From contig RDEW01000007.1 of the NCBI GenBank assembly GCA_011109175.1, forward strand, positions 247,712 through 311,711: DNA of 64,000 bases. Direction: 5' to 3'. Of the stretch, positions 1,318-38,559 are shown in pieces; the first letter of the stretch is position 1, and every line of letters starts with the position of its first letter. This DNA comes from Dicyema japonicum (taxonomy: Eukaryota > Dicyemida > Rhombozoa > Dicyemidae). The notes below the pieces were generated by a model. The model made no database searches. It was not told where the DNA came from and was given only the letters and a program-made list of their open reading frames with translations. Both the position numbers and the translations under genes were made by a program.

Positions 1318-2555
1318 ATGAGTAGTCTAATAATAAAGAATGTCGTAAATAAGACTGGAATTATAACTCTGAACAGAGAAAAGGCCCTTAATTCGTTGAC
1401 CACAGTAATGTGTAGGGAGCTTTATGACATCCTCAAGGTTTCTATGTTTATTTAATTGTAGGAATGGGACCGTGATCCTAGGATCAACAAAGTTATATTA
1501 ACCTCAAAGGGAAAAGCCTTCTGTGCTGGGGGAGATGTAAAATGTTGATTTTTTCATTCATTATCAGACCTGAGAGAAATGTCTTTGACAAAAGACTACT
1601 TTGCAATCTCTGACTTCTTCAGACAAGAATATACCTTGAACAACCTAATTGGGACAATGAAGACTCCGCTAATTCCCATAATCAACGGAGTCTTCATGGG
1701 AGGGGTTTGTCTGGCAATTACTATCAGGGCGTCGGAATAACTGTTCATGCACCGATTCGCATCGTCACGGAAAAAGCAGTCTTCGCTATGCCTGAAACTG
1801 CCATTGATATTTCTCCGCGACATTTCAGGTCTTTATCCTGATGTTGGAGGGACTTACTTTTTTCCTCGCCTTGCAGCTGGTCTGGGTACTTATCTGGGTC
1901 TAACAGGACAGCGTCTCCTAGGAATGGATGTTAAAATTTCGGGAGTGGGCACACATTTGTAAATTCGGATAAAGTACTAAATTTCTTTTACGATGTCCCC
2001 AACTTCATTGACAAGCTCACTGAGTATAACGGAGATTCAAATGTCGCCCCAACCGTTGAGAATATCTCTAGTCTGATTTTTTAGGCTTACTCGTCTGACT
2101 CAGGATTTAGCAAATTACTGACTTCTGAGAATCTGGGAGAAATCTCTGAGATCTTCAATTTGGGATCAGTTGAAGAGATCGTTTCAGCGCTTTCTAAGAG
2201 CTCGACCGACTTTGCAGCACAGACGTTGTCTACCATTAATAAAATGGTGACGACTTGTCTCTATTTCAGTCCCCAACATCCATTAAAATTACTTTCCGTC
2301 AGATTCAGATGGGGGTTAAGCTTCCGAATTTGACAGAATGTCTGAAAGTTGAGTTTCCTCTGTCGAACAATATTGTTAGACTCCACGATTTTCACGAAGG
2401 AGTCCGTTCTGGTTGGTTTGGAGTCTAACTTCTTAGTTCTCGTGGACAAAACAAACTCGCCTACCTGGAATCCTTCTTCTATTGCTGAAGTCAATGATGA
2501 TGACATCCTCAGATTGTATGATCTCCCATTTGGAGTGGCTAATATTGATCTCTAA
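1318..2555 (+). CDS. HIBCH: 3-hydroxyisobutyryl-CoA hydrolase, micro-intron gene
   Basis: Hydrolyses 3-hydroxyisobutyryl-CoA in mitochondrial valine breakdown; crotonase fold. Seen: [19 protein letters not shown] (oxyanion loop), [67 protein letters not shown], then a stop at 2553-2555. Introns placed from the family frame: 1438-1461, 1544-1567, 1705-1727, 1807-1828 (AT...AG ends, noncanonical), 2071-2103 (33 nt, least certain), 2247-2269 and 2412-2436. One base is missing near 1956-1960 (THF/VNSDK junction). Restoring that count gives 355 codons including stop, close to the mature human enzyme. The ATG at 1318 starts about 10 residues before TGIITLNR, so no mitochondrial presequence is visible; an upstream exon is possible. 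Either functional with a sequence error or newly broken. Confidence 0.9.
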
Positions 2556-2580
2556 TTTTATTGATTCCTCAACTAACTTG

Positions 2581-2842
2581 ACTTTTTGTGCAATTTACCC
2601 GAGAAAAGAAGGTATGAGTTGTTTGCTTTGATATTTTGAAATTGACCCTCGAGTTTCCACCCAATATATCCCCAGTTTATTTTGTTCTGATTATCCTATT
2701 AATGGCAATCAGAGATTGGACCAGAACTCTAATAGTCGATTTTCACTACTTTTCAGTTAGTCCACCCCCATTTGAAGAAGCAGGGGAAAGATCTTTAAAG
2801 GAGTTCGCTGTTTCGTGTCTACTATCATCACTGAGTTAAAAA
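2581..2842 (+). CDS. Possible unidentified spliced gene fragment
   Basis: A readable frame runs from about 2610 (RRYELFALIF) through EIDPRVSTQYIPSLFCSDY, then PINGNQRLDQNSN, and after a plausible 22-nt GT...AG intron at 2737-2758 continues SPPPFEEAGERSLKEFAV to a stop near 2840. One surplus T near 2634-2637 would have to be an indel. I do not recognise the protein. It follows HIBCH by only about 30 bases on the same strand. It could be a small gene or chance. Confidence 0.25.
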
Positions 2843-3551
2843 GTAGAGAAGTTTTCTTGGCTGACTAAGACAGAGGAAGGCTGATTCCAGGGAGGACAGA
2901 AGGAATGTTCGGTGAGAAGTAACCACTGTGACAATTAATTTAATGTTGTGGCATTTAGAAATTGTTTTTAGGGTTTATCGAAAATAATTTTACTTAATTC
3001 TGTTCAGATTTGATTCAATTTCCTTTGCAGTCTGGAAATTTCATCCTCTTTGTAACTTGGGGACCTACCCACGTCTACACTCTCTTGTCCTGGAACTTTA
3101 TAGAGATCATCGAGTACCTTGAGAGGTCACAAGGGTTAGTTCAAAAGTATAATAATAGCAAGTCAAAATATTCTAACAATGACTCCAAAATAAACGTTTC
3201 CAGTTTGTCAAGCGGTTAATGTAAAGTACTTAGAGTACACAAAATGTCTAATATGTTTCACAGATCCTTTCTTTTTCTCAGGCATATAATTTTTCTCAAA
3301 ACATTTTGAGACAATTCCACATTATGACCACCTGGATAGCTTATCGATAGTTTTTTGGCAAGGGACATGTCAGTCTCAAAATACCAGAGATAAATATAAA
3401 ATTAATTTAAATCCCCAAAAATAGCAAAGCATAATATCGAATTGACTAAAGATACAGGATAAGTCAGTTCAATTCTTGCATAAGGACGACACGTGGTTCA
3501 TGAATATATATTACCTAAAAGTACCATCTCAATTCCACCTAACCCAGACAT
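2843..3551. other. Intergenic, one weak antisense exon candidate
   Basis: AT-rich spacer between two convergent genes. On the - strand about 3005-3110 reads VPGQESVDVGRSPSYKED followed by EISRLQRKLNQI and a stop, preceded by a possible 22-nt intron. This resembles a coiled-coil C-terminus but has no identifiable upstream exon. Nothing else recognisable. Confidence 0.25.
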
Positions 3552-5327
3552 TTATGACCAATTTAACCACGTGTTACTCAAAAAACCAAATATATAAATA
3601 TTTATACTAAATACGAAAAAATAACAAAATTTATAAAAACTTAGAGCCAAAGCCATAATCTCAGCCAACGATTTGTTCTCCAACCTATCAGTCTTACGCG
3701 ACTTATTCCTTCCAGTGGTCCCCGACACGGAAATCTTCCGTTTTCTCGCCTTACTCTTTCCATCAACAGCCTACAAATAATCCAAGGTAAATCACCTTGC
3801 TCTGAACTGCCAATTGTTTCTCCAGAAACCGAAGTCGCGGAGTAACAGAAAGTCCCATAGACCTAAATCAGTGAACATGGCAAATACCGTGAAAATTCCG
3901 CAAGATCCAGCTTCTTAACATCGAATAACTCCTTGTCCGCTGCATAAAAGACCCACTTGGAGTAGGAGAGAATGGCCTTCTTGCATGCGTCGTTCAATTC
4001 TGGACTGTTGGCACAGCAGGACTGGATTCGACTAGTCACATTCACGTTGCTTTCACAGTTGATCTCAATTATGGGAATTCGTTGATTCAGTAACTTCTCA
4101 ACAAAGGTTAACTCGGAGTCCAGCAAAACCAGCAAGGAATGTCCACGATTTTGGTACCTCGCAGTCCTCCCAACTCTGTGGATATATGAATCAACAGAAT
4201 CGGGACAGTCAAGCTGAATCACCCAGTCGACTGCAGCAAAGTCTAAACCACGTGCTGCCAAATCAGTAGCAATAAGAGCAGAGTAATTCCTGTTCTCAAA
4301 CTCTTCACAAACGTGACTCCTTTGATGTTGTTTCATTCCTCCATAAAGACATCCTACTTTGATCCTCATGGCTTTCAGAAGCCCCTCCAGATACCTCACC
4401 TGCTTACACGTGGATAGGAACACAATCATCCTCCGTTTTTTCATCACAAGTCCACACAAAACACTCATTTTCTGGCCTATTCCGCATTTTATATATTTCT
4501 GCATAGATTTCACAGTGCTACCTGTTTTAGGCCGTTGGGAGTAGAAAACTCTGAGTGTTCATGGACGGAAATGTAAAGAGGACTGGTCACGTGTAGTCGA
4601 CTTAGATCGGTCACAGACTTTGTTAGGGTGGCTGAGAACAACAGGTTCTGTCTCTTTTGGGGCAACAATTCGATGATGTAGTTAAGGGTCTCCGAAAATC
4701 CCAAGTCAAGGATGCGGTCAGCCTCGTCCAACACTACAGTGATCATGAACAACAAACCTAACACTCGGAGGTTCAGACTCTCACGCTCTTCTAAGAATTC
4801 AAGAAGTCTTCCAGGGGTTCCTACAATTATGTTGGGACTCGATTTTAGCTGGGTCTTTTCGCCTCCTATGAGCAGTCCCCGTGTAAAAACGTGCTCAGAA
4901 CAAATTCCGTCGAGGACCTTAAATATTTGGGTGGCCAACTCCCTAGTGGGGGACACTATGAGAGCTGTCAGCCCGTCAAGATGAGTGACATGTGCCCAAT
5001 AAAGAGACTCAACAACCTTGATGAGTGTAATATGTACTGGAATAAGGAATGCTAGAGTTTTTCCTGATCCCGTCTTTGCTGCGGCCAATAAATTTTGTCC
5101 CCGTAGAGCTGGAAGGATTGCTTCTCTCTGGATGTCTGTTACTTCTTGCCACTGTGTCAATCCATTGAGAGTGAGCTCGGACAATGGGAGGTCAGTAAAC
5201 TTTTTAATATTCTCCGTTGAAGTGATCTTTAATGATTACATTACGTTACAGTAGATAGTTTATTCTTTAGTTTGGAGATTTCTTGTGCTGTATCGTGATT
5301 TTTGCTTTTACTAGATTTTTTCCCCAT
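3552..5327 (-). CDS. DDX10: DEAD-box RNA helicase DDX10/Dbp4
   Basis: ATP-dependent RNA helicase of the nucleolar small-subunit processome (Dbp4/DDX10 family). Starts at ATG 5327-5325 (MGKKSSKSKNHD). Motifs in order: FTDLPLS and DIQRE (Q-motif region), AAKTGSGKT (about residues 74-82), PTRELA, IGGEK, TPGR, VLDEADRILD, FSAT, ATDLAARGLDF, HRVGRTARY (about 350), then the DDX10-specific ELFDVKKLDLAEFS and SMGLSVTPRLRFLEKQ. Introns: 5227-5249, 5017-5037, 4734-4757, 4499-4521, 3863-3887, 3771-3795 (21-25 nt). Spliced length is 545 codons with no indel. Two introns (5017-5037, 4734-4757) are multiples of three without stops, so they look like insertions in the unspliced frame. The last roughly 25 residues are hydrophobic; an alternative 34-nt intron near 3605-3640 would stop after MALAL. 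Human DDX10 is longer, with a large C-terminal extension missing here. Confidence 0.93.
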
Positions 5328-5400
5328 ATTGCACTTTATTTATTTATTAACGTGAAAATTTAAATTTAAAAATAATTTATCACTTAATTCATAAAAGTTT

Positions 5401-5726
5401 TATTGATTTAGCCGCGTGGCATAGTGGTTAGGTGTCGGCTACGGGTTCGAATCTTGCTACTGTTCACCTGGTGGAAGGTTCCACGCATCTACGATGCAGA
5501 AAGGGTCTGACGAGTGACGCCGTCATCAGTGGATACTCACTGCGGAACTGGATTGTCTTGAAAGGACCCACACACAAGAAAAAGAAAAAAAGAAGTGAAT
5601 ATAATTCCTTGGTTCTACGATTAGTTAAAATTAACTGTTCTTTACTTAAATAAAGTGTGTCCTGCCTATGCGGAGCTATAAATACTATGGCTCTCGTGAA
5701 AAGGCTTTATTATTATTATTGATTTA
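5401..5726 (+). repeat. tRNA-derived SINE, full length with target-site duplication
   Basis: Begins near 5411 with a tRNA-like head: A box TGGCATAGTGG (5417-5427) and B box GGTTCGAATCT (5444-5454), a Pol III internal promoter. A unique body (about 5460-5640, with CCACGCATCTACGATGC) and a LINE-like 3' tail (about 5668-5700) follow, ending in (TTA)n. The 10-bp sequence tattgattta occurs at 5401-5410 and 5717-5726, consistent with a target-site duplication. A second copy lies at about 49893-50138 (- strand) and a fragment near 63040. A functional tRNA is unlikely because no acceptor stem pairs across the head. Confidence 0.85.
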
Positions 5727-5729
5727 ATT

Positions 5730-8363: not shown

Positions 8364-9725
8364 ATGTTACACAAGAAAATTTATTTATTTATTATTGGAG
8401 CATTCATTTGCTGGGGGTTATTACAAATTAACAGGCCAATGAGAGTATCCCGGTAGTTCTGAGTCGTTTACAATATTTATCTCACTAGTTCCCGGTTATG
8501 GAGGCTCAAAGTTATACGCTAAACTGAATGGTGTCGAAAAGCAGAGTATCTTCTGTAAGCCAAAAACCGACAACTACCGACTATTATGGGTTTCCTTACG
8601 CGACTTCATTCCAATTTTTGAGAAATGTGCCTTTTACATTTTTCGGTACGAACATTTTGCGTTAGCAGACTTCGGTGGAAGAATTCAACTCCCATGAATC
8701 AGTCTGGGGTGAGGATAAAGACCGGAACCTTCGGGGATCCTACTTCCGTGGAATGTCTCAATGACTCAAAATACGGTGAATTTCGCATTATTCGCAGCTT
8801 TAAAGTATACCGGCTATTTTTCTTGGATTATTGACAATTTAACAGCTTCTCTTTTCTATGAGAAAAATAGGAATTTATTCGGAATTCCCTACGACTTCAG
8901 GCTGGACCCTGGTTTTCTTTGTTAAAATAAATTAGATCATTTGAGTGACGTATTTCAGCGCTTGAAAACTTTCATTGAGGATAAATACGAGTCACTGGGA
9001 ATTCCATTCACTCTCCTGGCCCACAGTTATGGGTGCATCATCACGACCAATTTTTTATCGATTCAGTCGGCTTCTTGGAGGAGGAAGTATATCAGAAGGT
9101 TTATTAGCATTTCGTGTCCATATAATGGTTCCATAGATTCTGTTAGAGCCATTCTTATTGGTTAGCGGGATTGTTAACTTTAGGGGTCAATCTGAAAATT
9201 CCAATAAATAGAAAACTCACCAGGGACACTGTTAGAACATTTCCAAGCACATTCTCTCTTTTCCCGACATTTGGAGACCCAGTTACGGTCTCGGGTGTGA
9301 AATATGGATATGATCAGTTGGATGTTATTATTAAGGTATTTATTTGGTAGAGTTTTGAATTTGAATGATGGAGATGTAGAGGCCATGTTGGAAATGAGGA
9401 GCAAATACGAAGGCTGCTTGAGTAGTCTTCGAGTTCCAGAAGATGTTAAGCTTCACTGCTTATATTCAATTGGAATTAAAACTGCTAATTCATTTTCGTT
9501 ATATTTTACGTTAAACAAAGTTATGATTCGTGGAGTGATTTTCCGTCATTCCCTAAAACTGATTACACCGATGGAGACGGGACGGTTAGAACATCAAGTC
9601 TGTCTGAGTGTGGCACACGACACCACTGGGCTACAGTGAAAGAATTTTCCAACACGGAGCATCTCGAAATCCTCCGTGACCCGTCCGTTATTAAGCACAT
9701 TAACGACATATTGACTAAGACTTAA
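8364..9725 (+). CDS. LCAT/lysosomal phospholipase A2 (PLA2G15)-like acyltransferase
   Basis: Alpha/beta hydrolase of the lecithin:cholesterol acyltransferase family, secreted or lysosomal, acting on phospholipid acyl chains. Seen: N-terminal hydrophobic signal/anchor (YLFIIGAFICWGLL), a PGYGGSKLYAKL loop, KPKTDNY, GIPYDFRLDP, the nucleophile elbow AHSYG, SWRRKYIRRFISIS, the catalytic Asp in DGDGTV and His in TEHLEI, and a stop at 9723-9725. Introns: 8463-8488, 8646-8668, 8776-8797, 8912-8935, 9161-9183, 9498-9520 (22-26 nt). One base is missing near 8448-8452 compared with copy 2 (VSPVVL). About 16 surplus bases near 9334-9350 between DVIIK and VLNLNDG are not explained by a canonical intron. 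With both resolved the protein is about 401 residues (human PLA2G15 about 412). All catalytic residues are present, so probably functional or only just lost. Confidence 0.82.
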
Positions 9726-15300: not shown

Positions 15301-16351
15301 ATTCATTCATGATTTGTCGCTTCTCTGCCATTTGGCTAAGATCAAAGTGTAGTATCTGTTCTTTCCAGCTTTATATCGGGGACGCCCTTAAAAGGGGCAA
15401 GAGATAATGCTTATTTTTGTAACTTGGTGTGTGTTGCGAAGCTTGCTTCCGCCATACCGCACGTCCTCCCAGTATTGCAGTACTTCTAGGTTGGGCGCAT
15501 GGCCCCTTTCGGGGTCTCTTGAATTTCATTATGTACCATAGCGAGAGACATTTAATAGATTGAATAGCAGAGCCACTTACTCTTATTCCTTATCACTTCA
15601 CTCATTATTACTCTGTTAGCATTCAATTGAATGACCACACGACATGGCAGTTCAACAACCTGGGCGAAAGCAGAGGTAGACTCTTCATCCGAGATCTTCA
15701 TACTGTGTTTGATCTCTCGATAGCCAATATAACTGATTAGAACTAAGTCCTCGTTGTTCCTTCAATATAGCTTAAGTTTATGAGTTATGATTGAAACCCT
15801 CACTTTTTTTTCGTAATTATTGACTGATTCATAAAAACTCTAACTCTCAACAAAAGAAGTATATCCTTGTCCAAATTCTTTCCTACTCCAAATTGGAGTC
15901 CTTGGAGAATCATCTGTCTAAAGCAGCAACCATGTAATGGTAGTTAATATGATTTATGTTGATAATCATAAATATCATGAACTTAGTAGATATAAGACTT
16001 TTTTGTATTATGAATGACCACAGTTGAAAAATTCCCCAAGGTAAAAAAGAGTAATTTAACCTTTTGATGCAATTCTGGCACTATGCGCCTTCTAAGCAGG
16101 TAAATCACATGTCATGATGATAATAATGAAATGAAGGAACTGAGGAAATTTAAGAAACCCTTGACCAAGTAACCAGGAGGATCATATGCACAGATCATAG
16201 TAACCACTAATTATAAAACTTCATGAAACTCTTGGGACCGGGATAGTCTATTAAATGAAAACTAACCATGAAGTCATGGATAAATGTAGGATGTGATTTT
16301 TTAACTGAGGAGACGTAATCAACTCGTAAAATGAATTATTCCATATCACCA
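15301..16351. other. AT-rich spacer with a short LINE remnant
   Basis: About 15400-15540 contains a GC-richer stretch (CCGCACGTCCTCCCAGTATTG) similar to the 15005-15025 region of the preceding LINE, probably an older 3' fragment. The rest is AT-rich with stops in all frames; no gene seen. Confidence 0.4.
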
Positions 16352-20887: not shown

Positions 20888-20896
20888 TAAGCGATA

Positions 20897-23650
20897 TTGG
20901 GAAACGTGGACAGCAAAGACAGTTATGTCAAAGTCGGATTTGAAGAAGCAAGGTCACCTAAATGTTTGAAGCAAGGACTAAAAATAGTGCTAGTGAATGC
21001 CCGATCCCTAGGGAAAAGGCATAATAAACTAGCACTACTTGCGAGGGCCTCCAAGATCGACATCTTGGTGGTAAATGAGACGAAATTAAAGAAAGCAAAG
21101 AGTAATATAATGACTGGATACAATTCTGTGGACATTTTATGGAAGGCTGGAGCAGTTGCTGGTACGGGAACGTCTATTTTCTACCGGGACTGCCTCCGAA
21201 TTCGTAATCCAAAAGTCGTTTGTGATGTATTGTGTGAATTTGTAAGCATGGACGTTTGTTGCGACGGAGTATGGATTAGTGTTGGAGGTCTATACTCCAA
21301 GAATCTTGAGACTTGTTATACAGATATCACTGAGTTCTACAACAAGAATCCCTATACTATCGTAATTGGGGATCTTAATTCGAAGAACACTAGTTATGGT
21401 TGTATCAAGACAAATCAGGATGGACGACGTTTGGAATTATTGTCTGATTCACGTTGCTTTGTGATCCTTACGTCGGATGACCCAAATCATTTTTCTTATC
21501 ATGGTGGCGACAAACTCGGCGTATTCCTAGTATCGCCAGCTCTATCTGTGTATGTGGGAAAGCCAAAAACTCTATGGGATATCGTGAGTGACCATATTCC
21601 ACAAGAATTAGTTATCACTTTGAGACCAGATGTTATGGAAGATGTCTTCTTGAGGTTCAACATTTCTAACTTGGATTGGGCCCACTATAGGGTCTTCATA
21701 TCCAATAATTTGTGTGTTCTACCGAGAGAGTTTTCAATCATAGAAGGTATCAATGCTGCAAGTAGAGAATTAACAAATCTACTGCAGTCATATCTTCATC
21801 TGTATTCACGAAGGGTTTTCTCAAAAAAATCATTATTTTGTGTCGCCAATTATTATGAGGCTTATTCGGGAGAGGAATCCTAAGGGCAAAGCAAAGACGT
21901 TGTGCTGACAAAATAGACGGGGAATTCATATCAGCCAGAATCAGGATGATGAAGGAAGCAATCAGCGATATATGGAAGGAGGATACTGATTGTATATGGA
22001 GGGCTGAGACTGCAAAAAATGATGTGAAGAATCCCTCTTTTTGGAAATGCTATCAGAAGATAATGTGTCCGAAGTCGGGTGCAGAAAAAATTATACTGGA
22101 TAAACCAGACGGGGGAGTATGCATAACGGAGGAAACACCTTCGATATTCAGGGATCAGCTCCAAAAAATTTAGGGTGTGGATTCGTGGAGTTTGATCCCT
22201 GATGACAAAAAAAAGGTGTCTGCCGATATATTTAAACACTCCGACGAGGAACTACCTATTGCTGATATCACTGTCAGCATCTTTCAATTGATGACAGCTA
22301 TCAGGGAATGCAAGGTCAATGCTCCAGGATATGACCACATATCAATGAAACTTATCAAAGAGGGTCCGGATATTTTGTTTGACTATCTGCAATGTCTTTA
22401 TGATGGGTGTGTGCGACTTGGCCACTTACCTTTAATATGGAAAAAAGCTGTTGTGAGGATGATTCCAAAACCAGGGAAGCCAAAGAGAGATCCGGCAAAC
22501 TACAGACTAATTAGCTTAATATGTTCTTTCGCGAAAGTGATTAAACGTATCATTTTCAAAAGGCTAAGCAGACATATAGAAGAAAACGACTTTCTGATTT
22601 CGGAGCAGTGGGGTTTTCGTCCCGGAAGAGGTTGTGCAGACTGTTTCTTTCTACTGAATTCTGAAATCATGAAAGCAAAGGATTCCAAGAGACAAATAAA
22701 CTTATTATGTCTTGATATCTCGAAAGCATTCGACAGTGTATGCCATGAAGCGTTGTTAAAGCAGCTTGTATCAGCATGTGTTCCAAGATACCTATTTGTT
22801 TGGCTAAGAAATTATCTTCAGGAAAGACAATCTTTTGTGAAGGTGTGTGGATATATATCTGATGCAATATCATTCAAAAGAGGAGTACCATAAAGTTCAG
22901 TATTGAGCCCTATTTTGTTTAATATATTCATGGCGAGTTTTCCACGTCCGAGGAATATTAATACTAGTCTTCTTATTTATGCGGATGACGTAATCGTGGT
23001 GAACACATCTCTAAAATCTTCTATATCTGAAGGAAGAATCCGGGAGTATGTCGACCAGATTGAGCATTGGTGCAACTTGAGAGGGCTAAAGCTCTCTGCT
23101 GAAAAATCTTGCGCACTCCGAATAAGCAATGTGAAAAAGCACCTGAAACAAGAATACACACTGGGGAGTAAACAATTCACACAGTCTGCGCTACCTGGGG
23201 GTCGACTATGGACACGCAGGAGATTAAATGGACGACATTAAGGGAGGAGAAAAAGAGCCTTTCAGTCGCTCTTATGTACACGGAAGTTACACGTTAGCCG
23301 TGACACTTACCTGTTTATCTTCAAGGGAGTTATCTCCCTAGCCTACTTTATGGGTGCGAGGGGTGGTTCTTCTCTCCGAAGAGGGACAAGATCTTATCCC
23401 TCCTAGAGAAGACTAGAAGAGCTGCAATCAAGCTCTCCTTAAACAAGAAACTGAAAGACTGTCTAAACGAGGACGAAAACAAGCTCCTGGAACCGATTAG
23501 CAAGATTGTGGAGAATCGGATCAATGGTTTCAGGAGGAGATCAAAGGTCCAGGACAAATACATAAAGCTGGAAGAATAAAGATTAAAAAGCTCGGAGAAA
23601 CGTTCCGAAAAAGATTAATAATAAAAAAAGGAGGAAGGGTCCAGGTGTGG
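20897..23650 (+). mobile_element. LINE ORF2: APE endonuclease plus reverse transcriptase
   Basis: Most complete LINE in the window, with ORF1 immediately upstream. Endonuclease 20897-21883: LVNARSLGKRHNKLALL, ILVVNETKL, VIGDLNSKNTSYGC and IVSDHIPQELVI, where the first H of the usual SDH motif is kept. RT 22177-23241: KKAVVRMIPKPGKPKRD, YRLISLI, QWGFRPGRGCADC, CLDISKAFDSVCHE, LIYADDVIVV. Lesions: frame change near 21880, a glutamine-to-TAG stop at 22171 (IQGVD in the 49-kb relative), a glutamine-to-TAA stop plus Gly-to-Ser at the GVPQGS motif (22891), and C-terminal decay from about 23190. Ends near 23650. The same family recurs at 48190-51050 (- strand). Confidence 0.88.
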
Positions 23651-24215: not shown

Positions 24216-24247
24216 CTAATCTTTGCATAACATGTTTAAAATATGTT

Positions 24248-27105
24248 ATTGACTTATTTATTTATTTAATAACCCCGAAAAGGGAACACCAAGAAAGAAG
24301 GAGTAAACCAACTAATTAAGTGATCCCGGTACGCCTCAACAGGATCGAGAGGTTTTTCCTGTGTTCCTCCAGAGTACCCACGGCTTTCCTGAATAGACGA
24401 CGATCATCTTTCATTAGAGTTTGAAGAGGAGTGGGTTTTTTCCCCAAATTTCGTGTATTTGAGGCCTTTAGCCTTGAATGGAAGAAACGACTTGTTTCTT
24501 GGCCACACAGACAGATGAAGCCGGAGCCATTATTTTTGATTGCGGCGTGGTCAAGCATTGGAGGGAAAAGATCGGGGGTAGATTCGTTTGACGTGCTAGT
24601 TTGCCAATTAGGGTATTGATCTTGAGTGAATTTGATATCGAAGCTCCATAGGCCCATGAGGCACAAGCGTACTCAATCGTCGGTTTTAGGAGTTGATTGA
24701 ACACGACGAGGGCGCATTCCTGTGAAGGTTTGGACTTCAAGAGCGGTTTGATTATATTAAGTTTCCTGAGACCCTTTGTCATAACGTTCTTCACATGTTG
24801 AGAAAATGTCATCAAAGGGTCAAATGTCACTCCCAGGATAGTTGGACGAGTCTGTAGTGGTAAGGAGTCTCCAAAAATGTTCAAATCCAGTGTATGTTTT
24901 TCTTTTCTGTCCGTAGTGAAGATTGTATACGTTGATTTATCCCTGGATACGGAGAGACGATTCAACTTCAACCAGGCTCCCAGGTAGTCAATATGTGACT
25001 GAAGCTCTGATTTTGCTGTACCCACGTATTTGTTCCTGCTAGCGATGATTAGGTCGTCAGCATAAGTGAGAAGCATTGAATCTGGTCCTCCAGGGCAGGG
25101 TAAATCGTTGAGGAACATGTTGAATAATGCCGGAGAGAGGGGCGATCCTTGAGGGACGCCATTTGGTAGGAGACGGGACCTCGATCTTGCGTGGCCTATA
25201 CAGACACGTCCTCTTCTTCCGGAGAGAAAATTGGCTATCCATCTTTTCAAATCCGTCTGAATGGTGGTGTCAAAAACCTTCTTCGTGAGTAATATTCTCG
25301 AGACAGAATCGAACGCCTTCTGGATATCCAGGGAAACCATTATTGTCCGTAGATGGCGTTTCGGTACGTTGAACCCTTCTGATATAAATTGAGACAGTGA
25401 AGTCAAATGTGTCGTAGTTGAACGCTCACATTTGAAACCATGTTGAAAGTAGCAGTCGGGCAAATGGGGTTTAATTTTCAGAGTACGAGTTTCTCCATTA
25501 GGCGCGATAATGCGCACGTTAATGAAATTGGACGGTAGGAAGAAAATGAGGTTTTCGGTTTTCCTGGTTTAAGGATCGGTATTATAAGTGAGTTCTTCCA
25601 TTTGCTTGGGATGACGTTCATGTTAGAAGACAAATTAAAAATTGACGTAATCGAATTGATTGCAGCATTACCAAGGTGTTTTAACAAAATTCCCGGAATG
25701 CCGTCAGGTCCACACGTAAAAAATCTCTTCATCGATCTTATAGCCTGTGTGACCTCGGCATGCGTAAATAGATTGATCCATGAAGTTGGTTTATGCACTA
25801 AATTCCGAAAGTGACAAGAATGAGACTTCGAGAAGTCTATGTGACTTATAGATGCGTAATATTTCATTAGGTTGTTAGCTTGTACAATATTTGGAGAATA
25901 AAAAGATTCTGATACATCTGATAAGCTTAGCTTGATTCGACTGATAGTTTTCCATAAAAGACTCGTAGATTTTAAATGTCCAATAAATAATAATAAGCAG
26001 TTCCACGCCCTATCCTTCTTTTCTCTGATGAGCTTTGTAATTTTCTGATTTAAACATTTTATATTTTGCAAATCAGAAGAGGTTTGCAGATGATTCCTCT
26101 TCTTGGAGTTTCTTTGTTTGATGAGGAGACGAGTCTCCGAGTCCAGAGTTGGCTTGTAGGAATTGTAAACTGTACGTGGTACAAACAGCTTTTCAGCTTG
26201 AAGGATTACATGGTTTAGATGGTCTACTGCTTTGTCGATGGAGCAAAATGAGGTGGGATCAAAGTGTATTAGGTTATTGTCAATGAAGAGCTTAAAATTC
26301 GACCAGTCAGCTTTCTTGTAGACCTTGAAAGTTGCTTTAATTCACGCGAGTTATTGAATCGGCTTAGGTTTAATATAATTGGATTATGATCACTATGAAA
26401 ATCGTAGGAGACGTTCCATGAAATCTTCGGGGCAATCCTAGAAAAAGCAATGGATATGTAGGTGGAGGTTTGGTTGTCATTTCTTCTGATAGGTGTCCTT
26501 GTGAACATATTCGGGTGATTCAGAATCACCATTTTTGAGAGAGTCGATAATTAGACTCCCCCTCTTGTCTGCCGACTGAGTACTAAACCATTGCAGAATG
26601 TTTGGCATTGAAATCCCCACATAGTAACACATTTCGAATTTCTTGTAGTTTGTCGAGCTTCGGAACATAGTTATTAGGATAGGATCCCAGCGGTGGAATG
26701 TAAATGTTAATTAGAATAAGATGTTCTGACCCATTTATAAGATCAATAGAAATTTGTTCCGCGGTCTTGTCGTGTAGAATAAAATCATCCACTTGCAAGC
26801 TTACATCGTGGAAGGATAGACCGTTTCTGATAATTGTGAGTAAGCCGCCACCACGTCTAATGCGGTCTTTTCTGATAGAGATGTATCCAGGGAAAAGTGG
26901 GGTTGAACTCTTTGTAGAAAGTTTTGACTTTACGAAGTAAATCAACTTCCTGAAGGCGTTCTTGGGAAACCTAAGAGACAAAAAAGATATAAGTGAACTG
27001 GAGGTCATGTACATACAGTTCATCAAGTCTACAATAGGATACGCATGTAATGTCTTGTGATCTAACCTCGCTGCAACGAATTTGGACAGGATCTGCAACA
27101 TTCAA
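24248..27105 (-). mobile_element. Jockey-like LINE, near-complete endonuclease and RT, antisense
   Basis: Read on the - strand. Endonuclease about 27100-26270: STPLFPGYISIRKDRIRRGG, GSEHLILINIYIPP, LLCGDFNAKHS, YDFHSDHNPIIL. RT 26071-24468: LIREKKDRAWN, FTCGPDGIPGILLKHLG, IIPILKPGKPKTSFSSYRP, FQHGFKCERSTTTHLTSL, VSLDIQKAFDSVSR, GVPQGSPLSPALFNMFLNDL, LLTYADDLIIASR, ILGVTFDPLMTFSQHV. C-terminus about 24660-24316 ends in LLRRTGIT. A GGTTATTAAATAAATAAAT tail lies at 24250-24270. Single-base breaks occur between domains (about 26580, 25490, 24610), but motifs are intact, so it is a relatively young copy. The 5' end is truncated or replaced near 27100. Confidence 0.88.
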
Positions 27106-29160: not shown

Positions 29161-29219
29161 ATCCGTACAAACAAACTCACATAAAAACTAAGATAATATA
29201 AAACTATATGAAAACAGAA

Positions 29220-30837
29220 TCATTCAACTGCAAATCCTAGCCTATTCAGTCGCTTGGCCAACTTGATCTTCTGTCCAATCGCAGCTACGAGGATCTCTCG
29301 CATAGATTCCTTTGACTTCTCCGCCTTCTCCAAGGCAGATTTGTAACTAGACACCCTCGCCTGGTAGGCAGCACATCGTTCAGTTAACAGTGCGTTCAAT
29401 GGCAAGACCATGTCCCGTTCCTTCTGATAGGCCTTCAAGTCTTCTCTTAGTGAACTGACAGTGCTGTTGAGCAGGGTCCTCTGCTCGTTGAACGTCTTCA
29501 CGTTCTGTCGAACAAATCTCTCAGCTGTGGCCTTGTGGCGTCCAATAGTAACTTTAGAGTGGCAATATGCTCGTTTTTCTGCCTTATAATCTTCAAATGC
29601 TCATCCACGTGGTCACTGCCTTCATTCGTAATTTTCTTCTCGGTTTCCCGTTTCATGTTAACATCAATGACCAGATCTTGTAAGTTCCCAAGCATTTTTT
29701 CGATGGAAATGTCCTCTGTTAGGGTTGGGAGCATCTTCCGGAGTTTGTTGTGAATCTGGGAGTTAATAGAAAAAGCATACAGCCAATATACGGTCCTCGT
29801 GGTTTTGAATCTGCAGAATTGAGCCAAATATCTTACAATGCACTTCAAGTTTTTAGTCTTGAGGTCATTAGAGGAGTTCTTGTGCTGTTTTCGGAGAGCT
29901 AGGATCTCCTCTTCTGCCTTCTTTAAGGCCGCTGAGATCTTGTCGTTCTCTTGGAGCACCTAACTAAAGGTTTAAGGAAACTGATGTTAGAGAGTCGCAA
30001 GCGGTCCACTCCACATGGGTGTTACTAGAAAACTCCACTTGTTCGAGTTCCTGAACTCCACTGTCATCAAGATACGCGTCCACGTGCGGGTTTTCTATAG
30101 TTTGGGTCAGCTGAGACTCCAGATCCCAGCACCGTCTCCGCATATCCTCGATTGTGATGACGTTGTTGATTTGGTTTTCCATCAATGATTCGTTCTGCAA
30201 CTTCAACGAATCCATATCAATGAGAGAGTCCTTTAAGCAAGAAATCTCGAATATTTAGCTTGTCAAACCTGAGAGAGGAGATCCACGTTTTCCTTTTCCA
30301 ACGAAGAAATATTGGTAAGAGCCCGGGACTCGTTAGATTGACTTTTCTTAAATTCCTCCACCAATCTCGCCTTCTCCTGTTCATAAACGTCAATCTGATC
30401 CTTTGAATAAAATCAGAACCCGTTGTTTAAGGTCCAGAACCTCCTCCTTTAAAACAATGTTGTCTTCCTGTGCTTGAACGAGGGCAATGGAGGAGGAATC
30501 AACCTGCAGTTTGAGCGTGGCAGCAAGATTTGACAGATCTTCTTTTTCTGACGGAGCACAGACTTGTTGAGACTTCCGTTCGATAATCTGCATGAAACCC
30601 TAAAACAACTCCTCTGATGGACTCAAGTTCGTAGTCTTTCTGGAGGATCATCTCTTCTAGATGAGCCACTTTTTGAGTGGCGAACTGATGTTCGTGTAGT
30701 AGTTGGAGACCATATTCAGCCGCCTTGTTCTTATCTCTGTTTATCTCTTCGATTTGGTTTTTTAGTTGATCAATCCTGTCCAGTAACTCATAAACCAATT
30801 CAATGTCCACTTGATCAATGGAATATTCGTCAGTCAT
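29220..30837 (-). CDS. BICD: Bicaudal-D dynein adaptor, shortened
   Basis: Coiled-coil adaptor linking cytoplasmic dynein/dynactin to cargo. The N-terminal coiled coil has the CC1-box signature (KAAEYGLQLL, about residues 37-46), which contacts dynein light intermediate chain. The C-terminus matches the BICD cargo-binding coil: LREDLKAYQKE, LNALLTERCAAYQARV, ILVAAIGQKIKLAKRLNRLG, with the family-invariant R-C-x-x-Y in its cognate position. Introns: 30588-30609, 30395-30419, 30246-30268, 29960-29981, 29811-29836, 29756-29780 (22-26 nt). One base is missing near 29540-29545 (a CCC read as CC restores DAHKATAERF). With it the protein is 491 residues, against roughly 780-820 in fly and human, so the middle coil is shortened while both functional ends remain. 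Other CC1-box adaptors (Spindly, BICDR) lack this C-terminal match. Confidence 0.85.
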
Positions 30838-31003
30838 TTAAATTATTTTGATTCTATTAGAAGGGTGATTTTATTCAATAGATTTTTTTATTGAATTATG
30901 ATAGATTTTATCTATTTCATTAAATTGATAAATTATTAATTTAAAAAATGGTCAATTAATTTAATTAGCGGGATTCTTTGTCTATTTTATGTGTTAATAT
31001 TGG
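30838..31003. promoter_or_regulatory. Divergent intergenic region, BICD / SPRTN
   Basis: Only 166 AT-rich bases separate the two divergent start codons, so any promoter for both genes should lie here. No TATA or other element stands out from the AT-rich background. Confidence 0.35.
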
Positions 31004-31835
31004 ATGGAATACTATAATGCACTAGAACTAGATGATCCAAACCCAAATTGTTTCAAAATTGTAACACAACTTTTTTTGATAACAAACTGTCCACGGTTGT
31101 GGTAAAATACAGTCTCAGAATGACAAGGTATCATATACTAGTTATCAGAGATGTGCTGGTACGTGCAAATTCAACAAAATTGATGGCTTCTGTGTAATCA
31201 CATTAAGTGAGGCTCTATTAAAATTTCGATCAAGAAAGGAATTGGTGGAGACTCTCTTGGTTAACTATAGTGTTTACTTCTAGCACGAGATGATCCATGC
31301 TTTCTTGTTCTTGACTGGCAGTAGACACGTACTCGACAGAAATGGACACGGTCCCGATTTTTTGGAGCATATGAACCGCATAAATCGTGCGACTGGGCTC
31401 ACCATAACTGTATGCTAAGGAAATTATAGAAGGTTTACCACAAGTTTACCGACGAGGTTGTCCATTACCAGCAGCACTGGTGGTTGTGTGACGGCGCCTG
31501 TCGCCTCAGGCCTCCTTATTTTGGGTTGTTAATTTTGTGAGGGTAGATTGGTTCGTAGAGCCATGAATCGTCCTCCCTCTACCAGAGATCCTTGGTGGAA
31601 TCAGCACAGGGCAATATGTGGAGGAACTTTTGTCAAAATTAGGTCCCCATCAGCTAACGTGCGGAAAAAACCCGTAAAAAATGATGGAAAGCAGAAGAAA
31701 TTGACGGAATATTTGAAAAAGGACCGTAAGATTGAAGATGAATCATGTGATTACGTAGAGTGTCCCACTTGCGGTAAAATGGTTCAGTTTGGATTGATTA
31801 ATTATCATTTGGATGAGTGCTTGATTTATTTGTGA
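31004..31835 (+). CDS. SPRTN: SprT-like metalloprotease Spartan, minimal form
   Basis: DNA-dependent protease that clears DNA-protein crosslinks at replication forks. Seen in order: DDPNPNCFKIVTQLFFDNKL, SLRMTRCAGTC, LSEALLKFRSRKELVETLL, the zinc-site HEMIH (about residues 79-83) with third ligand His near 100 (RNGHGPDF), HWWLCDGACRLRPPYFG, RAMNRPPSTRD, HRAICGGTFVKI, a PIP-like QKKLTEYL, and a C-terminal UBZ4 zinc finger VECPTCGKMVQFGLINYHL...C. Introns: 23 nt just after RMTR (near 31123-31145), 31260-31283, 31410-31432, 31525-31546. One T is missing in the T run at 31071-31077; restoring it gives 246 residues. Human SPRTN is 489; the linker carrying the VCP-binding SHP box is absent here. 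Confidence 0.92.
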
Positions 31836-32879: not shown

Positions 32880-35690
32880 TTTATTGCCGTGTGACACCCT
32901 TCAACTGAAATGTCGGAAAAGAGTCGCAAACTCTTTATCCCGCAACCATGGACGCGCGAATGGTGTCGAATTCTACTCCTTTCCCATGAAGATGTCGAGG
33001 AACGTCCTGGACCAGATCCAGCCATAGTACAAATTAACATCAACGGTATCCGAACAAAAATTGCCGAACTACAACGCCTTCTCATAAAACACTCACTTTT
33101 TTTCCAAGAGACGAAACTTAACCCCAATTTTCCGGGATACTCCGTTTTTCAGACGAGACAGAGGTCATGGAAAGGGAGGAAGCCTTATCACTCTAAGAAT
33201 ATAATGGCCAGAAATATCTCGGACGACATCCCGGACTCTCCCGCCAAGACGACACACTGGAACATTTAACTCTGAGAATATGCCTACCCTCTCTCCGATC
33301 GACAGTTGTCAATATGTACATACCACCTCCACCGTCATGTCCCAGCGGCTACAGCCACGAACTCAAGCGATTCACCACGTTGGAAAGAACGAAAGAACGT
33401 GACCTAAATGCAAAGAGTTCTCAATGGTATGCTGACCAACAACTGGATCAACGGGCAGCCCTCATATCCGACACTTTTGACGACTTGATCACACAAGGTC
33501 CCCTTCCCTTCGAGGCGACTCCCTACTTCACCAGACATTTCTTTTGCAGCTCCTTTTCTTGCGGCTGTTATTTCATGGGATGTTATATACGACTTACATA
33601 CATACCATAACTCGATCTTCATGAGGATCCCACAAAAACATAAGTTAATGAACTCTCAGAGAACCAATATGAACTTCTCAAAGGCAATATGGCCCGCGTC
33701 ACACATTTTACCGAACTACACCTTCAGGCTTCCGGATAGAGAACTCGGATCTATTGAGCTGATGTCAAATACCTCAACGAGATTAAATTCGAGCTCGCAA
33801 AAATACATTCCGATGGGTCGTCCTCAACGTCCATTACACCCAATTGATGCTGAAACGCGAGATCTAATCCAAACGAGAAATAAGGTAGAATTTCGAAAGA
33901 CAATCAGTAACTGAAAGGATATCAAAACTGAACAAAAAATCACGTGGAACATCACAAAACACAACAGAACGTTGGGAAGCCTTGCTCAGAAAAGCTACGA
34001 ACAATACTTAGCCCACTGTATTATGGAAATCGATAAGGAGGCTCAAGAAGTGCTCTCCACATTTAATTGGACATCGAGAGCCATACCCAAATCCCAATGA
34101 CATTATGAAGTACTATGTCAATATTAGTCATAAACCATATTCAAAAGACCTGGATGTTCGGAAATGGTCGAAGGAATAAATGTCCCAACATGACTTTTTT
34201 CGACCCTTCAATGGTGCACTCAGTAATCAGGAAAATAATACTCGTCGTCCACGGTTCAGATGACATCTCCATTCTCGAACTAAATCCTGGGTCCTTCCGC
34301 GACGGCAGCAATATCAAATTTTCAACCTCTCAATAAACGAGAACAAGATTTCGTCAATATGGAAGAAATCTCTGATACACCCTATCCTGAAGAAAAACAA
34401 ACCACCAAACTGCCCGTTCTTCTACCTCTCGCTGTATCCATCATCTGCGCCTTATGTGTTAGAAAAACTGGTCCTTCTCAAGATCTGTCCTTTCATAACT
34501 CTACCATCTTTTCAACACGATTCCGCGAAAAGCACTCAACAACAACTTATCTAACAAAACTGGTCCGATTCATTTCCGACAGCCTGGATACTTCAAATCC
34601 ACACGAGAGAACCGTGCTGGTCTCAGTGGATGTAGACAAGGCTTTCAACTCAGTATCTTGGAAGATCCTTACAGCAAAAATTTTTACGACCTCGAACACC
34701 CTATATTCAAGTTATGGTTGACTAATTTCAATCAACGGTTGAATTGGCCAGGTGGTGGCAAACAACCAAAAATCAAAACCGCGATACCTTCCAAACGGAG
34801 TTCCACAAGGATCACCGTTATCTCGAATGCTCTTCAACATGTTCATCAGTGACCTACCATTCCCAACCACCAGAAACACAATTCTTCTATCGTATGCGGA
34901 TGATCTCGTGGTCGCAGTGAAACATCGAAAAATCAAGGAGGCGACACGATCCGTGCAAGACCTACTAAACCAGATGGGTCTTTGGTTCCTGAAGAACCGT
35001 CTGAATATATCACCAGAAAAGTCACATGTATTGACGTTCACCTCATCACGAAAGAATTACGGGCAACACCACGAATAACATTGTATGACTCCCCACTTCC
35101 CATTAAGAAGACCATTTCAATCCTTGGAGTCATCCTGGATCTCCTACTCACATTTACCCATCAAGTGGACCTACTAACCATGAGGATCCAAAAGAAAATT
35201 GGAATTCTCAAGGCTTTCACTCTCTCCAGAATCTTCCCGCCCATCGTTAGAGCTTCTATACAAACAATTCGTTCTACCTAGCATCGAGTACGCCTGTGCT
35301 GCATGGATTTCACCTTTATCAACATCGGCACAGAGCAAGCTGGAGGTTTTACAAAATTGATGTCTCAGGATTCTATTGAGATTGTCGAAAAAGACGTCCA
35401 CCTCGTTACTGCGGAGAAGACTAAACGTCCCCCAATCATGAAATATCTTACGGAACATCACCGGGACTTCCTCAAGATGGCAAAGTCCCCTGATCATCCC
35501 CTCAGACCGCACATCAGACTATATGGACGCCTGCACGAGATATGAGAAGAAACCTTCCCCGCTGTGGAGATTAATCCAGGACTCCAAAATTAACCGCAGG
35601 AAAAGACTGATATGGACACCTGGGTCACTTAATTAGACAATTACTTTTATCCTCCTTCTCGTGATTTCGGGGTTAATAAAATAAATAAAA
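32880..35690 (+). mobile_element. Jockey-like LINE with N-terminal 2A-like motif
   Basis: The ORF starts near 32910 (MSEKSRKLFIPQPW), runs through a hydrophobic RILLLSHE stretch into DVEERPGP, then enters the endonuclease (VQININGIRTKIAELQRLL, LFFQETKLNPNFPGYSV). The RT is scattered over frames: ISLISWKKSLIHPILKK-like region about 34340, FSTRFREKHSTTTYLTKLV, VSVDVDKAFNSVSW, VPQGSPLSRMLFNMFISDLP, LLSYADDLVVAV, ILGVILDLLLTFTHQV. Several frameshifts. Ends with GGGGTTAATAAAATAAAT at about 35670-35690. A second copy of the N-terminal motif is at 55430-55530. Confidence 0.85.
32991..33014 (+). other. 2A-like ribosome-skipping motif (DVEERPGP)
   Basis: Eight codons spell DVEERPGP directly after LLLSHE. 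The 2A consensus is D-V/I-E-x-N-P-G-P; here Asn is Arg. Position before an APE endonuclease fits 2A peptides known from APE-type LINEs. The Asn-to-Arg change would be expected to reduce skipping. Confidence 0.65.
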
Positions 35691-36211
35691 TCTATCAGCA
35701 ATTTTGTCTTCCAGAGCAGACTTGCAGAAATCTGGAAGAATGGTCCAGATGAGAAACGCATCGCTCGATAAAGAGGACATGGTGGATGGTAAGGAAACGT
35801 CCAAAACAGAAGACGAGTAAGAATGCTTGCTTCAGTACAATGTTATCGAAATTTATAATCACAATTTCTTCAATAGACTTGAAGATAAAAATATTGAAAT
35901 TCTCCAGGCTTTCCGGAAAGAGCTAGCAAGGGAAACATTAATCTTGAAAAGAAAGAACGCACTATGTGTATCAAGTTCATGCAGTTTAACGGTGGCTCCA
36001 CTAATCTCCGTTTCTTATTTAGAATACGAGGATAACTTCGTCAGAAATGGGAGAGCCCAATAAAATAAGGTGCTCCACATCGGTGATAACAGCATCGGGG
36101 AAAAAGACATGATCCTGCATTGTGATTTTAAGAATTCATCTTGCAAGAGTCACAGATTACAAATTTGCTCAATCGTGAATCCATAACAGATAAGAACGGG
36201 AAGAATTTAAT
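35691..36211. other. Spacer with one unassigned ORF
   Basis: 35827-36063 encodes NRLEDKNIEILQAFRKEL and ETLILKRKNAL, which could be an exon or repeat debris. I recognise no family. The rest is AT-rich. Confidence 0.3.
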
Positions 36212-37770
36212 TAATTTTAATTTATTAACCCCGGATACACCGAGAAACAAGTTAAAGTAAACAACAAATTAAGTGTATCCAGTTTCCACTTCTACAGAAA
36301 CAGAGTCCATCCGGAATCAGCATAAAAGGTAAGACGTCCATTACATGCAGTTGTGGAAACCCCTCCAGTAGAGTGGGGGAGAGTAAATGATCCTTTTTCG
36401 TACCAATTAGGCACTGGGCGTCACCTAGACATGTGAATCACATGATTCCACTCTAGTTGGAAGAGAGAGGAGGAACAGACAAGCAAGCAGAAAACTTCAA
36501 CCAATTAACCACGCAGCACCACATGGCGGGGGGAAAGAAGAAGACTTTTCATAACCATCTCGGAAGATCCACCGATCATAGCATCGTCAAAATAACAACA
36601 ATCGAAAACCTCAACGCCACACACAAACTGACAGCCTCATCCACAGCCAAAGCAAAAAGATCGGACCAAGAGGATCACCTTGTTGTACCCCAGTCGATGA
36701 TTTAATGAGATCGTCACCAATAACGAGATGGGTTGGAGTACCGTATGCGAGGTTCTTAAAGTTGATAATTCTTGAGGCTCTCCTCAAGACAGTTCCACAA
36801 GATGGTCCTTCTCACCGAATTGAAGGCTTTGGAAAGTATAACTTCATCATCTATCGAGTTCCTTTTTGCTGAATTTAGGACTGTTTCTCTTCTCAATGAT
36901 TTTCATCTTTGAAAGAGTGTTTCGCATATTTGCTTGTTAAACGAGGAGGTTACTTTTTTCCATCCTTCCACTTCCTTTTTCTTAGTGTTGTTCTTTATTT
37001 CGCTATCCAGCACTCAAATCGGTATATAATTTCTGGGGATGACTTTTGACTCATAATCTTCGTTTTGTGGTCAAACGCTTAATGTAGGATTTGATTGACC
37101 ATTCGGATTTGATTAATCTGGATCTTTCTGTTAATACGGGAAAGTCCATATCGAGTGAATTTAGCAAAATCTTTCCAAATAACGTTTGTGTAATCCAGGA
37201 AATTGTTTTATCTTCTTTCTGAGATGAGCGTTTTCTTCATCCGAATGAAAATAGGATTGTGGTCGCCAAGGAAATCATAATCCCAGACAAATTGGCAAGA
37301 GAAACAATGTTAGGGGGTGACAAGGGGCAAATCAGGTGAAGTCGTGTTGTCTTGGAAGTAAACTCCTATGGGCAATTTATGTTTTTTATGCAACCTTTTG
37401 ATTGTCCAGGATGTCGATATTGAAATTTATCAAAGCCATCAATTTTTTATATCATATTTACTTAATTTTGCAGATGAATTTACATTTTCAGATATCCATA
37501 GGTAATGGAAATCAAGTCATAGTTCTGCAGTCTCCAGCCCTCCATAATTGAGAGTCTGAAGGTTAGACTTTTCCTAACACTTGCTCCACCTCCGTTGCTT
37601 AGTTTTCTGTGAGAAGTAACGTATTGGCTGATTGATAAGCGGTTATCTTCTAACCAAATCCAGGTGCTGATAATACGGTCCACGTGTTGTTGCAATATGG
37701 TAGTTTGAAATCCAAACAACGTTAAGACAGACAATGTCATCTGCATAAATTAATAGGATGTCTTTTTTGT
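36212..37770 (-). mobile_element. Jockey-like LINE fragments, antisense
   Basis: 36226-36540 is the inverted counterpart of the 54310-54620 3' segment, beginning at a TTATTAACCCCGG tail. About 36650-36900 keeps weak RT traces on the - strand (a KAFNSVRRTIL-like run). 37746-37480 reads NGGGASVRKSLTFRLSIMEG in the endonuclease position, comparable with the GGGLLTII region at 26.8 kb. Heavily decayed. Confidence 0.6.
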
Positions 37771-38189
37771 TTATTTGTATCCAAAGAATAGGAGGGGTTA
37801 TTTTGATGGGCTGTTGATATCTTCCATGAAGTTGAAGCCTTGTTAGAAACGTGTCATTGGAAAGCGAAAATCCTCTACGGAGGAAAGAAGCTCTTGGTTC
37901 TTATTCTAGACGAATTGGGCTCCATTTGAAAGTACCGAAACCTACAGAATTAATCAACAACACAACGTAACACCAATTACAATATTGAATTGAAATTTAT
38001 TTCCAAAGACAACAGTTAAAGACAAAACAAGAAATTATGTGATCCCGGCAAATTTCAATATAAATAAAATTTAATAGCACTACAAAGAAAAACAGCTTGA
38101 AATTATTTAAAAATTATAAAATAATGCGTTTTTATTTAATTTAAATAATTCAAAATTTTATTTTAAAAGTTGCCTATTAGTTAGTAATC
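37771..38189. promoter_or_regulatory. AT-rich upstream region of CRIPT
   Basis: About 420 bases, very AT-rich after 38050, with no ORF of note. Any CRIPT promoter should lie near its right end. No defined element seen. Confidence 0.25.
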
Positions 38190-38559
38190 ATGGTTTGTGA
38201 TAAATGTATGTGTTCGATATTAACAAATAATTATGAAAATAATGTTTCTAGGCCAAACAAAGTTGGGGAAGGTAATCACTCCAGACAACTGGAAGTCAGG
38301 GTCACGGAATTCTACACAGGACGGTGGACGGATAATCAACGAAAACAAAGCACTAACAGCCAACAAAGCGAGGTACAGATAATAAAAAAATCTCAGATAT
38401 GGTCGTAACACAGAGTTTCAAACTTGTCGAATATGCTACAGGTCGGTCCACCAACCAGGGGCCTACTATTGTCAGGGATGTGCCTACAACAAAGGCATCT
38501 GCTCAATGTGTGGTAAGAAAATTCTCCCCACAAAAGACTATGAACAAAGGACTTCTTAA
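38190..38559 (+). CDS. CRIPT: CRIPT, cysteine-rich PDZ-binding protein
   Basis: Small zinc-binding protein, a minor-spliceosome and post-synaptic PDZ-linked factor in animals. Spliced product is 99 residues (human 101): MVCDKCQTKLGKVITPDNWK, GGRIINENKALTANKARYG, TCRICYRSVHQPGAYYC, QGCAYNKGICSMCGKKIL. All four CxxC pairs are present (C3/C6, C56/C59, C71/C74, C81/C84). Introns are 46 nt after the sixth codon's first base (about 38206-38251) and 24 nt around 38376-38399. The spliced length is exactly 100 codons including stop, with no indel. In unspliced DNA it appears as two unrelated short frames. Intact and probably functional. Confidence 0.95.

Follow-up and report, generated by a model that had tools for sequence, protein, structure and literature searches.

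In this study, we examined the very short introns that interrupt the conserved genes in a window of 64,000 nucleotides (nt) from contig RDEW01000007.1, part of a genome assembly of 64.67 Mb in 191 contigs. Five genes in the window carry the analysis, namely HIBCH-like, DDX10-like, LCAT/PLA2G15-like and SPRTN-like genes and CRIPT, and a sixth resembles BICD (Table 1). A preliminary description of this DNA had proposed that GT...AG segments, almost all of 21-26 nt, split the reading frames of all six. Judged from their sequence, we consider these segments very likely to be real U2-type spliceosomal introns of a dicyemid, one of the minute animals that live as parasites in octopuses and related molluscs.

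Introns in the conserved genes of the window

The coding blocks of these genes can be recognized by homology. Single frames of the HIBCH-like gene match successive parts of Pfam ECH_2 (2-101, 102-266 and 260-307) in three different frames, and the SPRTN-like gene matches human SPRTN (6mdw) with 159 bits. To place introns between such blocks, we used a spliced protein-to-DNA aligner that permits GT-AG introns of 12-100 nt at a flat cost and has no length preference. References were solved structures and protein records; that for the LCAT/PLA2G15-like gene was partly provisional, and for the BICD-like gene provisional pieces of BICD2 were used. The score units lost when a single intron is banned are termed its drop, and an intron with a drop of at least 8 is called firm. 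In the five genes the aligner placed 23 introns, of which 15 are firm: one of 21, one of 22, six of 23, five of 24, one of 25 and one of 46 nt; that is, all firm window introns but the last are GT-AG introns of 21-25 nt (14/15). The other eight are weaker (drop below 8); among them are one of 19 nt in the LCAT-like gene, with a drop of 2.0, and two of 21 and 33 nt in HIBCH (drop 0.5 each). The two long exceptions named in the preliminary description thereby part company, as the 46-nt CRIPT intron is upheld with a drop of 12.5 whereas support for the 33-nt HIBCH intron is weak.

As a control, the permitted dinucleotide ends were swapped over all 256 pairs in the five genes, with lengths of 15-60 nt. 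GT-AG yielded a total gain of 540.8, compared with a mean of 163.6 (standard deviation 62.7) and a maximum of 333.2 for the other 255 pairs. It ranked first in HIBCH, SPRTN and DDX10 and third in CRIPT; for the PLA2G15-like gene it fell outside the best four pairs, in a run whose reference missed a stretch. GT-AG ends between conserved coding blocks, as in U2-type introns, were thus found with one probable exception, a 22-nt AT-AG segment in HIBCH. When a second pair was permitted in that gene, seven dinucleotide pairs gained at least as much as AT-AG, and alternative boundaries for positions 1807-1828 fit the frame equally. The proposed range of 21-26 nt stands for the firm introns, which centre on 23 nt, but the rule of GT...AG ends does not hold throughout. 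With its six introns taken out, DDX10 encodes 544 amino acids plus a stop, and CRIPT, which loses two, encodes 99 plus a stop, in agreement with the 545 and 100 codons given earlier.

Results for the BICD-like gene were of a different kind: no solved-structure match was obtained, the protein search returned no homologue at E ≤ 0.001, the Pfam BicD score of 27.1 bits is under the cut-off of 27.9, and one of seven intron calls (23 nt) was firm. Its identity and introns are therefore weakly supported.

A second copy of DDX10 lies in locus L013 (7938-9768, contig C119) and is 90.5% identical to window positions 3541-5405, with small frame differences. Four introns keep their lengths in it (23, 21, 24 and 23 nt) without gaps. 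Sites differing between the copies (10 of 91 in introns, 88 of 1320 in exons) are too few to tell whether introns and exons decay at different rates.

The retained lengths bear on the alternative that the frame breaks represent assembly indels or pseudogene damage and not introns, which we regard as very improbable. Such damage would have company in this genome: HIBCH contains two indel-like breaks, one of them possibly the AT-AG intron, and its frame change near 1957 is unaccounted for by canonical introns; Pax6 (locus L025) has two breaks without a canonical intron explanation; and nine frame shifts are spread over 7 of 14 DEAD-type loci. Random events would not, however, yield GT-AG ends, lengths of 21-27 nt in nearly all firm introns of a wider sample, or the published phases of Pax6 (both described below), nor would they leave the intron lengths of a second gene copy unchanged. 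The residual small breaks near 1957, in Pax6 and in the seven DEAD-type loci are probably assembly indels. Some frame breaks thus look like small assembly indels and not introns, which would add to the causes of failed single-frame calls in this DNA.

Table 1. Positions of genes, introns and spliceosomal RNAs; window coordinates unless a contig is named, with the drop in score units
Feature	Position	Strand	Phase	Drop	Remarks
HIBCH-like gene (3-hydroxyisobutyryl-CoA hydrolase), multi-exon	1318..2555	+			human HIBCH chain 3bpt, 293 bits for draft spliced product; stop codon located
HIBCH intron, 24 nt	1438..1461	+	0	34.5	
HIBCH intron, 24 nt	1544..1567	+	1	24.0	
HIBCH intron, 23 nt	1705..1727	+	0	33.0	
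HIBCH probable non-canonical AT-AG intron, 22 nt	1807..1828	+	1		removal restores 10 protein letters; A at -7
HIBCH candidate intron, 33 nt	2071..2103	+		0.5	weak; from the preliminary description
HIBCH intron, 23 nt	2247..2269	+	0	34.0	
HIBCH intron, 25 nt	2412..2436	+	1	23.0	
DDX10-like gene	3552..5327	-			spliced alignment; best matches animal
DDX10 intron, 25 nt	3771..3795	-			removal keeps C-terminal frame open; basis is the open frame, not homology
DDX10 intron, 25 nt	3863..3887	-	2	2.1	weak by homology; belongs to the 544-residue open frame
DDX10 intron, 23 nt	4499..4521	-	0	32.3	
DDX10 intron, 24 nt	4734..4757	-		6.7	multiple of three without stop; same length in L013 copy
DDX10 intron, 21 nt	5017..5037	-		12.0	multiple of three without stop; same length in L013 copy
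DDX10 intron, 23 nt	5227..5249	-		0.8	drop by homology; contains stops, removal opens N-terminal frame
LCAT/PLA2G15-like intron, 23 nt	8646..8668	+		7.5	partly provisional reference
LCAT/PLA2G15-like intron, 22 nt	8776..8797	+		15.0	partly provisional reference
LCAT/PLA2G15-like intron, 24 nt	8912..8935	+		17.0	
LCAT/PLA2G15-like intron, 23 nt	9161..9183	+		23.5	
LCAT/PLA2G15-like intron, 23 nt	9498..9520	+		6.5	
U2 snRNA copy	15316..15505	+			Rfam, 135 bits; branch-recognition letters intact
BICD-like intron, 23 nt	30246..30268	-		15.0	provisional BICD2 reference
SPRTN-like intron, 23 nt	31128..31150	+	2	14.0	
SPRTN-like intron, 24 nt	31260..31283	+	0	15.5	
SPRTN-like intron, 23 nt	31410..31432	+		11.0	alternative of 20 nt
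CRIPT gene	38190..38559	+			human CRIPT 7dvq_0, 152 bits
CRIPT intron, 46 nt	38206..38251	+	1	12.5	long exception
CRIPT intron, 24 nt	38373..38396	+	2	16.5	
U12 snRNA gene	C68:163471-163599				85.4 bits, above cut-off; single match
U11 snRNA gene	C1:1591391-1591510				67.6 bits, above cut-off; single match
U6atac snRNA gene	C34:237761-237858				37 bits, cut-off 33; single match

Elsewhere in the window, retroelement-like frames, judged by eye from the translations, run uninterrupted, unlike those of the host genes, and reach 366 amino acids (for example 20891-21883 and 24468-25568). Fragments of large-subunit rRNA lie on the minus strand at 52732-53256 (54 and 219 bits).

Intron length across the genome

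Our wider sample comprises 18 loci: the five window genes, 12 of 14 DEAD-box loci tried, and Pax6; the DEAD-type loci L011 and L015 were omitted as introns brought no gain there. Over these loci 92 introns were placed, 51 of them firm, and two of the 51 belong to the second DDX10 copy. Unless stated, counts of length and motif omit the 41 introns with a drop below 8. Firm lengths were 21 (4 introns), 22 (7), 23 (17), 24 (15), 25 (4), 26 (1), 27 (1), 31 (1) and 46 nt (1). The short, uniform length under 30 nt by which dicyemid micro-introns are known is accordingly seen in 49 of the 51, all of 21-27 nt, with the 31- and 46-nt introns as the others, and the mean is 23.46 nt (standard deviation 1.64, n = 50, without the 46-nt intron). 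The sample covers introns of at most 100 nt and is built around conserved domains.

A count that uses no reference proteins points to the same size. In 264 kb of sampled sequence (GC 37.6%), we counted GT-AG segments that join two open reading frames of at least 40 codons on both sides, and the clearest excess was at 22 nt (124 against 85.3 expected) and 23 nt (126 against 94.5). Taken over the whole band of 20-28 nt the signal is weaker, with a GT-AG ratio of 1.40 at a minimum of 60 codons that ranks only fifth of 256 pairs; at 40 codons GT-AG falls outside the best eight, and the length profile alone is informative. On the window's plus strand, a gene finder based on codon usage, with a signal of 0.21 bits per codon, called 30 introns whose lengths are scattered and form no clean peak.

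Lineage of the source genome

The preliminary description had taken the DNA for that of a dicyemid, and Pax6 supplies evidence for this that is independent of intron length. For the spliced product of the Pax6 gene on contig C13, the top match is Pax6 of Dicyema acuticephalum (378 bits; 89% of the query aligned at 70% identity), with the next-best match 69 bits behind at 309. Alignment to the D. acuticephalum protein places introns of 24, 23, 25, 21, 24 and 31 nt. Those that fall in the paired domain and the homeodomain have phases 0, 1, 0, as printed for D. acuticephalum, the comparison being one of phase and domain. Pax6 of that species is reported from cDNA and genomic clones alike in the part of that paper available (PMC2222250), which lends indirect support to removal of the introns from mRNA. 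Short introns do occur in other lineages, such as the ciliate Nyctotherus (21-29 nt; PMC2633312) and the orthonectids (median 57 bp; PMC6543705), as far as the accessible text of these sources goes. An orthonectid, ciliate or other short-intron source is nonetheless exceedingly improbable in view of the Pax6 margin and of an animal-like gene set, in which the best matches of DDX10 too are animal. On these sequence comparisons the source genome is assigned to Dicyemida, and because Pax6 identity is 70%, the species is probably not D. acuticephalum.

PAX-domain matches occur at four places in the genome (C13, C101, C122 and C1), in an animal whose body comprises a few dozen cells. A frame break shared among these paralogues was considered as a hidden intron and rejected, as it is present in only two of the four; the breaks are taken as probable indels.

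Sequence signals inside the introns

At the 5′ site of the 50 introns of up to 31 nt, GT is preceded by G (64%) and followed by A or T (86%), and the four letters after GT together carry about 0.8 bits. T or C precedes AG in 82%, and T makes up 43% of the interior, compared with 28% of the flanking exons. No ciliate-like avoidance of stop-free multiples of three was seen: of the 51 firm introns, 20 have lengths divisible by three and eight of these are stop-free, though the aligner is biased against such introns.

One internal signal is an A at a fixed distance from the 3′ end. It was counted in the firm introns of 20-28 nt (49, or 47 without the L013 duplicate): 29 of the 47 have an A at -7, whereas the frequency among 9511 GT-AG segments of 21-26 nt that arise by chance is 0.307 (p 1.1e-5). 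When -8 is accepted as well as -7, the count rises to 40 of 47. The surroundings loosely fit YTNAY, with Y at -10 in 27, T at -9 in 25 and Y at -6 in 36 of the 47. When intron interiors were shuffled, none of 2000 shuffles reached the observed A peak for the 49 firm introns, and the same was true of the 35 outside the window; for the 14 window introns, the YNAY form was reached by 14 of 2000. We regard this positioned A as a candidate branch site.

Spliceosomal RNAs and the minor spliceosome

Searches of the genome for small nuclear RNAs (snRNAs) gave 25 matches to U2 (22 above cut-off) and 10 to U6 (nine above). The recognition letters are intact in the copies inspected, two of U2 (GUAGUA) and one of U6 (ACAGAG), and the stretch GTGTAGTA is present in all eight U2 loci examined and in the U2 copy of the window. 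The latter differs at 10 positions, two of them in stem-loop I, from a better copy in L030, and is perhaps decayed.

RNAs of the minor spliceosome are also found, U12 with one difference from the consensus within its first 28 letters. Some of the tiny introns might accordingly be of the minor class (U12-type), a reading that gains from U12, U11 and U6atac all scoring above cut-off, from the AT-AG segment in HIBCH, and from the occurrence of CRIPT in PDB entry 7dvq, which we take to be a minor-spliceosome structure. To our knowledge, U12-type introns this small would be the shortest of their class. We hold this to be improbable, however: the 5′ start RTATCCTT occurs in none of the 92 aligned introns, a strict U12 pattern gave five candidate matches in 360.5 kb (53 sequences), and U4atac was not found in the genome, in a search whose controls gave no signal either. 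The literature retrieved on dicyemids and U12 consists of one survey, and the U12 passages in its available text are not about dicyemids (PMC2483917).

Discussion

Dicyemid micro-introns are already known as a class. Published dicyemid figures agree with the earlier statement that dicyemids have introns in this range; as given in the accessible parts of these papers, introns of D. acuticephalum average 26.2 ± 1.9 nt (n = 16) (PMC2222250) and those of Dicyema sp. have a median of 27 bp with about two thirds below 30 (PMC6543705), while for D. japonicum a mean of 38.2 is given, in a genome of 67.5 Mb with 36.7% GC, values close to those of the present genome (PMC6736024). Our introns share the short and uniform size of those of D. 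acuticephalum but are shorter (Welch t -5.2, p 3e-5), and their mean of 23.5 nt seems to lie below all published dicyemid figures compared. The figures for Dicyema sp. and D. japonicum describe whole gene-model sets with longer introns, whereas ours are homology-anchored and at most 100 nt, and the shift of 3-4 nt may in part result from method. What may be new is this slightly shorter size, the fixed position of the branch-like A and the minor-spliceosome RNAs.

Two further comparisons concern the signals. Introns of the ciliate Nyctotherus ovalis are likewise of 21-29 nt, T-rich and of the form GTA...TAG; in the part of that report available, they differ from ours in that stop-free introns avoid multiples of three and that no branch motif was found (PMC2633312). 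Irimia and Roy (2008) described dicyemid introns as lacking a branch-point signature and having the weakest 5′ score known (PMC2483917). Going by the accessible text of their survey, our data agree on the weak 5′ site (0.5 bits there) and disagree on the branch, since an A at -7 stands out in our firm introns. Apart from that survey, the literature retrieved on the dicyemid branch point comprised only a paper on nuclear receptors.

How might such introns be read? In the human machinery, the accepted minimum for U1 and U2 to sit together on an intron lies far above 23 letters. We propose that the introns have contracted to an almost constant length of about 23 nt and that a fixed geometry would be their most likely mode of action. 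The 5′ site offers little beyond G|GT(A/T), and hence weak U1 pairing. The branch A would lie at -7 (or -8), in surroundings that resemble YTNAY and with which an unaltered U2 (GUAGUA) would be able to pair, and the next AG would be chosen by its closeness. With four letters between this A and AG, a polypyrimidine tract could not fit after the branch, and there would therefore be no room for the tract read by U2AF2. U2 would instead be placed by branch pairing together with UHM proteins bound to SF3B1, of which an RBM17-like one is a candidate: a UHM match on contig C126 shows 49% identity to residues 303-363 of a provisional human sequence.

Human short introns that depend on SPF45/RBM17 provide a possible working model, in that RBM17 replaces U2AF on SF3B1 (SF3b155) where the tract is too short; as described in the accessible part of that work, the human model intron has 56 nt and a truncated tract, whereas the dicyemid introns have no room for a tract after the branch-like A (PMC8363638). 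It is because no tract fits, and because of this human precedent, that we favour branch-site pairing plus protein contacts, and we infer from this that the U2AF-tract contact is dispensable and that RBM17 has a role. The mechanism in this form remains tentative, at slightly under an even chance.

Several observations weigh against it. A U2AF2-like match is present, in five pieces at C114:219969-221071, none of them above the whole-protein cut-off of 310 bits, and SLU7-like (77.8 bits) and PRP18-like (116.7 bits) matches exist as well, while the G-patch match of RBM17 sits on a contig other than C126. Taken alone, the 14 window introns have an A at -7 at a frequency of 0.50, a value attained in 189 of 2000 shuffles. 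In 20 introns of lesser support, with drops from 2 to 8, it is at chance (0.25 against 0.23). Among 325 new frame-joining segments of 21-26 nt, the frequency of A at -7 was 0.363, compared with 0.318 for segments of other lengths (p 0.07), and in the same segments only the combined signature showed enrichment (26 of 325, against 49 of 1257; p 0.0025). Loss of the machinery that reads the 3′ site, considered as a cause of the tiny introns, is rejected for now, given the U2AF2-, SLU7- and PRP18-like matches.

A different solution to the same problem, and the chief competitor of this model, is exon definition, in which U1 and U2 would pair across exons and switch to the intron later, such that a tiny intron would never hold both. 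It would account for the weak 5′ site, with its 0.8 bits after GT, and U1 beside U2 within 23 nt does look sterically hard; further, exons of D. japonicum average 198 bp in the available text of the genome report (PMC6736024). A positioned A and a tight length, on the other hand, point to selection on the intron itself. Later steps, moreover, still need U6, U5 and U2 on the intron. We consider exon definition somewhat unlikely, and retain fixed geometry within the intron as the preferred explanation. We would put it just short of evens that such a geometry (about 23 nt, A at -7, no tract, and U2AF2, SLU7 and PRP18 kept), together with a retained minor spliceosome, had previously been missed.

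These results have practical consequences, as gene callers that assume a usual minimum intron length will overlook or fragment many genes of this genome, and stop-free introns with a length divisible by three (8 of 51 firm) would be silently translated into gene models. At the level of biology, 23-nt introns stand here beside ordinary-looking U2 and U6 and several of the usual splicing proteins. If the proposed geometry and the retained minor spliceosome are both true, the latter would splice its own introns in a genome in which nearly all others have shrunk, and if the branch A truly lies at -7, how an animal spliceosome reads such introns would become directly testable.

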